This document shows positions 1,181 through 52,697 of a DNA stretch of 64,000 nt, one piece after another. Both the position numbers and the translations under genes were made by a program. The notes beneath the pieces were generated by a model, which did not search any database, was not told the DNA's origin, and worked only from the letters and a program-made list of their open reading frames with translations. The stretch's first letter is position 1. Every line of letters starts with the position of its first letter. Where the stretch lies: the NCBI RefSeq assembly GCF_020166105.1, contig NZ_JAIUJY010000005.1, positions 186,001 to 250,000 on the forward strand, written 5' to 3'. The DNA comes from Blastococcus sp. LR1 (GTDB lineage Bacteria > Actinomycetota > Actinomycetes > Mycobacteriales > Geodermatophilaceae).

Positions 1181-1196
1181 GCTACCGGCCGGTAAC
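1181..1196. promoter_or_regulatory. inverted-repeat operator candidate in ecm promoter
   Basis: The sequence reads GCTACC-GGCC-GGTAAC, two 6-bp arms around 4 bp. It ends 5 bp before the -10 box of the leaderless ecm transcript, so a bound protein would cover the -35/-10 spacer. The same architecture recurs at 8625, 14935 and 52682 in front of functionally related genes. The binding protein is unknown. Confidence 0.55.
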
Positions 1197-1201
1197 CGCC
1201 C

Positions 1202-1207
1202 TAGACT
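1202..1207 (+). promoter_or_regulatory. -10 box of leaderless ecm transcript
   Basis: TAGACT lies 8 nt before the ATG at 1216, the spacing expected when transcription begins at the start codon itself. No Shine-Dalgarno sequence is visible before the ATG. Confidence 0.5.
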
Positions 1208-1215
1208 CCCGCGAC

Positions 1216-50455: not shown

Positions 50456-51534
50456 CCACCGCCCCCGCGACCGGCCGCGCGCAGGCGGTGTCCGCCCAGC
50501 CGGGCGTCGCCGTCCGGCTGGAGAACCTGACCCGGCGGTTCGGCGACGTCGTCGCCCTCGACGGGCTCGACCTCGACATCGCCGGCGGCGAGCTGCTCGC
50601 CCTGCTGGGCCCCTCGGGCTGCGGCAAGACGACGGCGCTGCGGGCGATCGCGGGCTTCGAGCGGCCCGACGCCGGACGGGTGCTCGTCGGCGACCGCGAC
50701 GTCACCTCGGTGCCGCCGAGCAAGCGCGACATGGGCATGGTCTTCCAGGCCTACAGCCTCTTCCCGAACATGACGGTGGCCGACAACGTCGCCTACGGGC
50801 TGCGCGTGCGTGGGCGCGGGAAGCCGGAACGGGCCGCGCGGGCGACCGAGCTGCTCGAGCTCGTCGGCCTGGCCGACCGGGCCAAGCGCTATCCGCACCA
50901 GCTCTCCGGTGGCCAGCAGCAGCGGGTGGCGCTGGCCCGCGCGCTCGCCGTCGCGCCGCAGGTGCTGCTGCTGGACGAGCCGCTCTCCGCGCTGGACGCC
51001 CAGGTGCGGGTGCAGCTGCGCGAGGAGATCCGGCGGCTGCAGCTGGAGCTGGGCATCACCACCGTCTTCGTCACCCACGACCAGGCCGAGGCGCTCTCGA
51101 TGGCCGACCGGGTCGGCGTCATGCGGGCCGGCCGGCTGGAGCAGGTGGCCTCGCCCGACGAGCTGTACGAGCGGCCGGCGACGGCGTTCGTGGCCGAGTT
51201 CGTCGGCACCATGAACCGGGTGCCGGCCACGCTGTCCGGAGGGGCGGTCGAGCTGCTGGGCGTGCGCCGTCCGGTCGCCGGCGCCGCGCCGGCGACCGGC
51301 CCGGTGGTGGCGCTGGTGCGCCCCGAGGCGCTCGTCGTCACCGACGGGGGCGCCGGCCGGGTCGTGACCCGCACGTTCTCGGGGGCTGTGACCCGGGTGC
51401 TGGTCGCCCTGCCCGACGGCACCGAGGTCCGGGTCGACGTCGCCAGCGCCGACAGCGCCGCGCTGGTGCCGGGCGCGGCGGTCACCGTCACGCCCGTCGA
51501 GCGCCCGGTCCTGGTGGCACCGGTGGAGCCGTGA
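50452..51534 (+). CDS. ABC importer ATPase (PotA/FbpC-like)
   Basis: A 360-residue ATPase with Walker [10 protein letters not shown], the Q-loop VFQAYSLFP, signature [15 protein letters not shown], Walker [12 protein letters not shown] and switch His in [14 protein letters not shown]. The last 110 residues are a TOBE-type regulatory domain ([11 protein letters not shown]). The ATG overlaps the stop of permease 2 (ATGA), and its own stop overlaps the next GTG (GTGA). It energises the importer from the cytosolic face. Confidence 0.9.
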
Positions 51535-52649
51535 CGGGCGGCACGACCGTCGTCGATCGGTCGGACCCGGCCGGGCGGGCCTGGGTGGACCAGGCGGTCG
51601 CGATCGTCGAGGCCGACGCCCGGCGCAGCGCGGACACGCACCTGCTGGTCTACCCGCTGCCCCCGGAGTGGGGCATCGACCTCTACCTCAAGGACGAGTC
51701 CACCCATCCGACCGGCAGCCTCAAGCACCGGCTGGCGAGGTCGCTGTTCCTGTACGGGCTGTGCTCGGGGCAGATCGCCGAGGGCAGCACCGTGGTGGAG
51801 GCCTCGAGCGGGTCGACGGCGGTCAGCGAGGCGTACTTCGCCCGCATGCTCGGGCTGCCGTTCGTCGCGGTGATGCCGCGCTCGACCAGCCCCGAGAAGA
51901 TCGCGCTGATCGAGTTCCACGGCGGGCGCTGCCATTTCGTCGACCGGGCGCCGGAGATGTACGAGGAGGCGCGCCGGCTCGCCGCCGAGTGCGGTGGGCA
52001 CTACCTCGACCAGTTCACCTACGCCGAGCGGGCCACCGACTGGCGGGGCAACAACAACATCGCCGAGTCGATCTTCGAGCAGCTCTCCGCCGAGCGGCAC
52101 CCGGTGCCGGAGTGGGTCGTCGTCGGCGCCGGGACCGGGGGCACCAGCGCCACCATCGGCCGGTACCTCCGCTACCGCCGGCACCCCACCCGGCTGGCCG
52201 TCGTCGACCCGGAGAACTCCGCGTTCCTGCCCGGCTACGAGGCGGGCGACCCGAGCCGGACCACCGGCACGCCCTCGCGCATCGAGGGCATCGGCCGGCC
52301 GCGGGTCGAGCCGTCGTTCGTGCCGACGATCGTCGACCGGATGATCGGCGTCCCCGACGCCGCCTCGATCGCCGCGATGCGGCACCTGGAGCGGGCCACC
52401 GGACGGCGGGCCGGCGGCTCGACCGGCACCAACCTGTGGGGCGCGTTCGGGCTGGTCGCCGAGATGCTCGCGGCCGGCCGTCGCGGCAGCGTCGTGACCC
52501 TGCTCTGCGACGGCGGCGAGCGCTACGCCCACACCTACTACTCCGACGAGTGGGTGGCCGCGCAGGGCATGGACCTCGGCCCCGCCACGGACACGCTGGT
52601 CAGGTTCGCGACGACGGGGGAGTGGGTGTTCCCCGGCGGCCGTGGGTGA
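51531..52649 (+). CDS. cds1: PLP-dependent L-cysteine desulfhydrase-like enzyme
   Basis: A 372-residue fold-type II PLP enzyme of the cysteine-synthase family that resembles mycobacterial Cds1, which degrades L-cysteine to pyruvate, ammonia and H2S. The PLP Lys is in [13 protein letters not shown], the substrate loop is [12 protein letters not shown], the phosphate-binding Gly-rich loop is [14 protein letters not shown] and the terminal Ser/Cys position is in [12 protein letters not shown]. The GTG overlaps the ATPase stop, so it is the fifth gene of the importer operon. This coupling suggests the imported compound is cysteine, a cysteine conjugate or another PLP-enzyme substrate. Cysteine synthase activity is an alternative. 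Confidence 0.75.
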
Positions 52650-52681
52650 CCGGGGTCACCAGCCCCTCGGCTCGCCGCCGC

Positions 52682-52697
52682 GTTACCGGGCAGTAAC
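52682..52697. promoter_or_regulatory. inverted-repeat operator candidate in etfBA promoter
   Basis: GTTACC-GGGC-AGTAAC lies 69 bp before the etfB ATG. Its right arm overlaps a TAACCT -10 candidate (52694-52699), the same relation as at ccr. This is the fourth member of the motif group. Confidence 0.55.

Follow-up and report, generated by a model that had tools for sequence, protein, structure and literature searches.

An acyl-CoA gene operator in Blastococcus and related actinobacteria, with FasR as its probable binder

Introduction

In a 64 kb stretch of the Blastococcus genome (C5:186001-250000, hereafter the window; the genome comprises 4.02 Mb in 10 contigs), inverted repeats of one form, GYTACY-N4-RGTARC (GYTACYNNNNRGTARC), stand before ecm, hbd, ccr and etfB. 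Do these repeats represent a single operator, which protein might read it, and what would its binding do? A sequence-only reading of the window had taken them to mark an undescribed short-chain acyl-CoA regulon, controlled by a dimeric repressor encoded elsewhere. Here, we follow the sites through the genome and through orthologous promoters in related genomes, and compare the candidate regulators.

Results

The four sites in the window

All four repeats are present as the sequence-only reading had listed them (Table 1), and each is intergenic by our own simple gene calls, in which starts are predictions, in keeping with its placing of all four in promoters. Between 19 and 74 bp separate the end of the site from the start of ecm, hbd, ccr or etfB. 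The sequence-only reading had found no further similar pair in front of a gene, and there is indeed no other [CT]TAC-N6-GTA[AG] across the 64 kb. The four observed copies of GYTACY-N4-RGTARC compare with a mean of 0.01 per window under a first-order Markov null (200 runs, maximum 1).

By its context, the mutase behind the first site appears to be an ethylmalonyl-CoA mutase, although this substrate is putative, and etfA is likely to share an operon with etfB. A glyoxalase-fold gene lies directly upstream of ccr (14968-15444), and it possibly encodes an ethylmalonyl/methylmalonyl-CoA epimerase.

Table 1. Predicted operators, -10 boxes and genes. Plain numbers are positions in the window; other locations carry the name of their contig or locus.
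Feature	Location	Strand	Remarks
Predicted operator before ecm	1181..1196	.	GCTACCGGCCGGTAAC; exact site in 32/48 ortholog promoters with upstream sequence, own included
-10 box of ecm (likely)	1202..1207	+	TAGACT, 8 bp before ATG; predicted from sequence
ecm, acyl-CoA mutase, methylmalonyl-CoA-mutase-type	1216..3234	+	TIGR00641 and TIGR00640 above cut-off
Predicted operator before hbd	8625..8640	.	GTTACTCACCGGTAGC; exact site in 21/49 ortholog promoters, own included
hbd, duplicated 3-hydroxybutyryl-CoA dehydrogenase	8706..10487	+	593 aa; NF005875 674.6 bits, two stretches
ccr, crotonyl-CoA carboxylase/reductase	13529..14860	-	TIGR01751 605.9 bits, cut-off 378.55
-10 box of ccr (likely)	14933..14938	-	TAACAT, predicted; shares the operator's gene-side arm
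Predicted operator before ccr	14935..14950	.	GTTACCGATGGGTAAC (+ strand); exact site in 42/49 ortholog promoters, own included
Predicted operator before etfBA	52682..52697	.	GTTACCGGGCAGTAAC; exact site in 48/62 ortholog promoters, own included
-10 box of etfBA (likely)	52694..52699	+	TAACCT, predicted; shares the operator's gene-side arm
etfB, electron transfer flavoprotein beta subunit type	52767..53546	+	NCBIfam matches under their cut-offs
etfA, electron transfer flavoprotein alpha subunit type	53583..54545	+	NCBIfam matches under their cut-offs
FasR ortholog, TetR family	G000:C5:64917-65546	-	same contig, about 120 kb from the window
CitE/HpcH-type lyase	L016		exact site upstream; perhaps Mcl
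FadE5-type acyl-CoA dehydrogenase	L017		two sites, 5076 and 5099
765-aa iron-sulphur/CCG oxidoreductase	L018		exact site upstream
Thiolase, then FadB/FadJ-type gene	L019		exact site upstream; divergent neighbour is a sugar-binding protein gene
FabG1-like gene, then enoyl-ACP reductase	L021		exact site upstream
MlaF/MlaE/Mce-type operon (lipid importer)	L022		exact site upstream
FadD11-like ligase	L029		exact site upstream; score under that model's cut-off
PgfA/PorA-type cell-envelope lipid protein	L025:3093-4061		site 59 bp upstream; NF053601 255.9 bits, cut-off 160; PF11271
Gap between gltD and pyruvate kinase	L023:4482		exact site about 70 bp before pyk
Gap between nfo and a 330-aa gene of no known kind	L020		exact site

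Sites across the Blastococcus genome

Without mismatch, GYTACYNNNNRGTARC occurs eight times in the genome, four of them inside the window, and the slightly wider YTACY-N4-RGTAR (YTACYNNNNRGTAR) occurs 16 times. By our own gene calls, 15 of these 16 exact sites have a predicted start, mostly that of a lipid or acyl-CoA gene, no more than 200 bp downstream (binomial P 4e-18, if the window's 5.8% share of such ground holds genome-wide); the remaining one (C1:450581, L347:2082) cannot be placed clearly in a promoter. The bare numbers are less telling. Allowing up to one mismatch, GYTACY-N4-RGTARC gave 26 sites genome-wide against 33 for the reversed pattern, and exact YTACY-N4-RGTAR gave its 16 against 10; only TTACY-N4-RGTAA (TTACYNNNNRGTAA) stood out, with 19 sites against one at up to one mismatch. 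The whole-genome scan that the sequence-only reading had proposed as a check spoke for the motif by placement and against it by counts of the degenerate pattern. Site counting on its own is weak evidence, and it is promoter placement and conservation that carry the proof.

The genes behind the further sites (Table 1) include a 765-aa oxidoreductase that, we presume, resembles the ETF oxidoreductase EtfD, and a FadE5-type protein whose best named match, at 96% identity, is from B. saxobsidens. A one-mismatch site also stands 30 bp before another acyl-CoA dehydrogenase gene (L016:3703-4896). The sites in the gltD-pyk and nfo gaps show no plain fit to the acyl-CoA theme; the former, if real, would tie glycolysis to the regulon.

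Conservation in related genomes

Orthologous promoters, the other main check put forward by the sequence-only reading, were scanned for exact YTACYNNNNRGTAR in the 300 bp upstream, in up to 60 genomes including our own, and they keep the site at all four genes, most often at ccr (Table 1). For ccr, one locus (L420) was added and one of 50 matches, at a contig start (G054), was dropped; for ecm, one locus at a contig end (L367) was dropped; and L419 was left aside, its promoter being already represented in L297. Markov nulls gave a mean of 0.01 to 0.05 promoters per gene, compared with 21 to 48 observed. When the core spacing was set to any value between 0 and 14 except 6, only 0 or 1 promoter per gene matched among the ecm, hbd, ccr and etfB orthologs. 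At spacing 6, the opening 300 bp of these genes themselves held one match in all. In a GC-rich genome the sites could in principle be chance palindromes, and the reversed controls, about as frequent as the pattern itself, would suit such an origin. However, placement, Markov nulls and spacing together refute it, and we give it next to no weight.

Conservation is most complete at fadE5. Among 80 named fadE5 loci (L062-L141), all 78 with upstream sequence (L069 and L137 are without) carry the site, and they span Geodermatophilaceae, Pseudonocardiaceae, Actinomadura, Jiangella, Aeromicrobium, Nocardia, Gordonia, Williamsia, Rhodococcoides, Mycobacterium and others; the reversed control gave zero in the same 78 promoters. 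Two or more loose sites were present in 54 of the 78, mostly 23 to 29 bp apart. This distance is unlike the 13 bp between the cores in the FasR crystal DNA considered below.

Closer to home, the regulon is less constant. In six congeneric genomes (G001, G003, G008, G010, G019 and G022) the ccr site is kept in 6/6, an exact etfB site was found in 1/6, and exact sites at ecm and hbd in 0/6 each. Regulon membership shifts even between close relatives. Taken with the 16 exact sites in the genome, the retention of the site in orthologous promoters bears out the proposal of one shared operator and regulon reaching across and beyond the window, and it is near certain that the sites form a genuine operator, conserved and belonging to a wide acyl-CoA regulon.

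The FasR ortholog as candidate binder

The sequence-only reading held that a dimeric regulator, of TetR or GntR type, acts from outside the window. Indeed, 0 of the 39 TetR matches in the genome lie within the 64 kb, and a TetR-family candidate was found elsewhere on the same contig, the ortholog of FasR. It matches the M. tuberculosis FasR structures 6o6p and 6o6n at E 7.8e-59 over 200 residues, and its recognition segment, IADRAGVSKPVLYQHF, is identical to that of the M. tuberculosis protein. The NCBIfam FasR model NF053731 scores 252.9 bits, under its cut-off of 330, and is the sole NCBIfam family matching at E 1e-20 or better.

FasR is present at E 1e-30 or better in 58 of the 60 genomes, own included, and in a 59th (G045) a fragment at the end of a contig is 68% identical. 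It was not found in the remaining genome, G027 (79% complete), though G027 does have a ccr site. In a tree, 32 FasR matches, the Blastococcus protein among them, form one clade (support 97/95) and six FdmR-like proteins form a separate one (100/98); the fork joining the two groups is weak, the program warns of long branches, and the M. tuberculosis protein was not included. Of the 34 rows labelled FasR, the two outside the clade (L423 and L424, the best matches of G045 and G027) are other TetR proteins.

A small DUF3107-like gene adjoins fasR. The Blastococcus fasR promoter itself holds GAACC-N4-GGTAAC about 11 bp before the ATG, although its GGTAACAT may serve as no more than a -10 box. Across 59 fasR promoters, a copy that differs from TTACYNNNNRGTAA at no more than two positions is present in 31 (Markov mean 1.7, maximum 5, 60 runs), and one that differs at no more than one position in seven (mean 0.03, maximum 1), including a single exact copy (L194); the rows are related, so that the null is generous to the claim, and one row (L205) is a second, 36%-identical match. 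The other 28 of the 59 have no copy within two mismatches of TTACY-N4-RGTAA.

The motif itself appears in published work on mycobacteria, and it is here that the word 'undescribed' in the sequence-only reading fails. A palindrome of TAC and GTA with 6 bp between them was reported in 2012 before Rv3229c, Rv3230c and fas (Rv2524c), in clusters of two to three sites, tied to genes raised on palmitate (PMC3388012, BMC Genomics 2012). The DNA co-crystallized with M. tuberculosis FasR, TACCCGTACGTAGAACTCGCCAGTA (PMC7382501), holds near-copies of it, TAC-N6-GTA and AAC-N6-GTA, each one mismatch from TACY-N4-RGTA (TACYNNNNRGTA); two such 12-bp cores arise in simulated random 25-mers (60% GC) with P about 5e-5. 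The second core shares its GAAC left arm with the Blastococcus fasR promoter. Three TAC-N6-GTA sites precede fas (PMC3388012), and FasR binds three inverted repeats before fas (PMC7382501), in favour of FasR as binder. The latter account states that acyl-CoA of C16 or longer disrupts FasR binding, and it describes FasR as an activator of fas-acpS (PMC7382501). FAS-I (PF08354) was not found in our genome, and was found in 2 of the 60, with a Corynebacterium glutamicum control that matches.

The first candidate that we considered as general regulator was FdmR (Rv0238), represented by a Mycobacterium protein that we take to be FdmR from gene order near fadE5. It was dropped, as a protein at least 40% identical to this reference is encoded in only 6 of the 60 genomes, and the operators are spread far more widely; in Blastococcus the best match to it is FasR itself, at 27%. 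An FdmR-type TetR repressor as the binder in place of FasR is not without attraction. FdmR is described as a repressor of fatty-acid degradation genes that responds to long-chain acyl-CoA (PMC12403877) and as a key regulator of fadE5 (PMC9262360). The site (GTTACTGGTGGGTAAC) is present before fadE5 in both Mycobacterium loci that include upstream sequence, and a second site lies at the edge of a thiolase-type frame near fadE5 (L133:14406, CTTACTCTGGAGTAAG; L135:13655, CTTACTCTGAAGTAAG). The recognition helices of FdmR and FasR are alike, and in Gandjariella a site (L089:15730) stands just upstream of an FdmR-like gene (match from 15832). Even so, its narrow distribution makes FdmR an unlikely general binder; in mycobacteria, where both proteins exist, FasR and FdmR may share sites.

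Some other regulator has a small chance of being the binder, for instance a non-TetR protein or, among the many TetR proteins of this genome, the 212-aa one at L017:6375-7013, about 1.3 kb upstream of the fadE5-type double site. In scans of TetR loci that allowed up to one mismatch, 7 of 30 have candidate self-sites, 8 further loci have none, and L017 has just its two operators. FasR itself has the crystal-DNA match and conservation across the order. It is the sole candidate compared whose spread fits that of the operators, which occur in many genomes without FdmR and without FAS-I. Counting against FasR are its published role as an activator, the NCBIfam score under its cut-off, the 28 fasR promoters that lack a near copy, the published role of FdmR at fadE5, the exact sites missing in the six congeneric genomes, the ccr site of G027, and the weak fork in the tree. 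On balance we infer, at a probability of roughly three in four, that the FasR ortholog is the protein whose operators these sites are.

Operator position and a proposed mode of action

As had been described for ccr and etfB, the gene-side arm of the operator fits a -10 box there, TAACAT and TAACCT, respectively. At ecm, TAGACT begins 5 bp past the site, and at hbd the box is not clear-cut (TAGCCC). When 143 ortholog sites were read in gene direction (related rows, hence not independent), the gene-side arm extended to TANNNT in 96 of 143, compared with 21 of 143 at the mirror position, and the commonest hexamers were TAACAT (33) and TAACCT (26). In many promoters, then, the operator arm doubles as a -10-like box, a geometry that points to a repressor, as the sequence-only reading had suggested. 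Overlap with a -10 box is an unusual location for an activator. The site as the box of a single activator was rejected on geometry alone.

The published action of FasR on fas-acpS (PMC7382501) raises another reading, in which FasR binds these sites but activates the genes behind them. Against it stand the frequent run of the operator into TANNNT and the physiology: acyl-CoA would then shut off fat use, which makes little sense. We consider such activation improbable.

With FasR as repressor, a simple switch can be proposed. A FasR dimer would bind YTACY-N4-RGTAR, and at ccr, etfB and many orthologs it would cover the -10 box and keep RNA polymerase off. Once the cell takes up fatty acids, long-chain acyl-CoA, a ligand carried over by analogy from mycobacterial FasR, would fill the FasR pocket and FasR would leave the DNA. 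Its release would turn on the beta-oxidation genes fadE5, fadAB and etfBA and, jointly, genes of the ethylmalonyl-CoA pathway (hbd, ccr, ecm and that for the CitE-like lyase) for the resulting acetyl-CoA. Repression by FasR, relieved by long-chain acyl-CoA, is thus the mode of action that we infer.

Discussion

The operator described here belongs to an acyl-CoA regulon, as first proposed. The term 'short-chain', by contrast, was too narrow, since sites also stand before fadE5-type, fadAB, fadD-like and fabG-fabI genes and a Mce-type importer, and since the effector of mycobacterial FasR has an acyl chain of at least C16. If the assignment to FasR is true, it would name a switch for the assimilation of acetate and fat via the ethylmalonyl-CoA pathway across an actinobacterial order, and would account for the conservation of FasR where FAS-I is absent. 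Ccr and Ecm shape the acyl-CoA pools that feed polyketides, and for this reason the regulon also bears on strain engineering.

There is, in our view, about an even chance that the basic role of FasR in actinobacteria is to repress fat use, coupling beta-oxidation to the assimilation of acetyl-CoA through the ethylmalonyl-CoA pathway, and that activation of FAS-I in mycobacteria was a later recruitment, after FAS-I was gained. In that case, the ethylmalonyl-CoA pathway of actinobacteria would have found its transcriptional regulator. What was known before is the motif itself, from mycobacteria. What appears to be new is that in actinobacteria without FAS-I this operator, with FasR as its probable binder, is linked to ETF, to beta-oxidation and to the ethylmalonyl-CoA pathway; among the matches listed in literature searches, no title or abstract beginning joined FasR to the ethylmalonyl-CoA pathway.

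Several known systems invite comparison. In E. coli, FadR represses fat degradation until acyl-CoA binds and also acts on synthesis genes, but it belongs to the GntR family and has a different operator. CcrR of Methylobacterium is a TetR regulator of ccr, although an activator, and in a proteobacterium. The operator motifs of KstR and KstR2 have a different core. FdmR is closer, a TetR protein that represses fatty-acid degradation, responds to acyl-CoA and is tied to fadE5 (PMC12403877; PMC9262360), but it is only about 25 to 33% identical to FasR, and the Blastococcus genome has no protein at least 40% identical to it.

The motif of 2012 is alike in core, 6-bp spacing, clustering and place before fatty-acid genes. 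It differs in having been reported for mycobacterial Rv3229c, Rv3230c and fas, with no regulator named in the accessible part of the report (PMC3388012), and a word search of its main text gave no mention of etfB, fadE5 or fasR. Through the sites described here, that motif would become a wide and testable regulon. Finally, the mycobacterial system of FasR (Rv3208) and fas-acpS differs in that FasR is there an activator of FAS-I (PMC7382501), whereas in Blastococcus no FAS-I was found, the targets appear to be catabolic and the operator is placed as a repressor's would be; yet the two systems have in common an orthologous TetR protein, its recognition segment, and near-copies of the operator in the crystal DNA.
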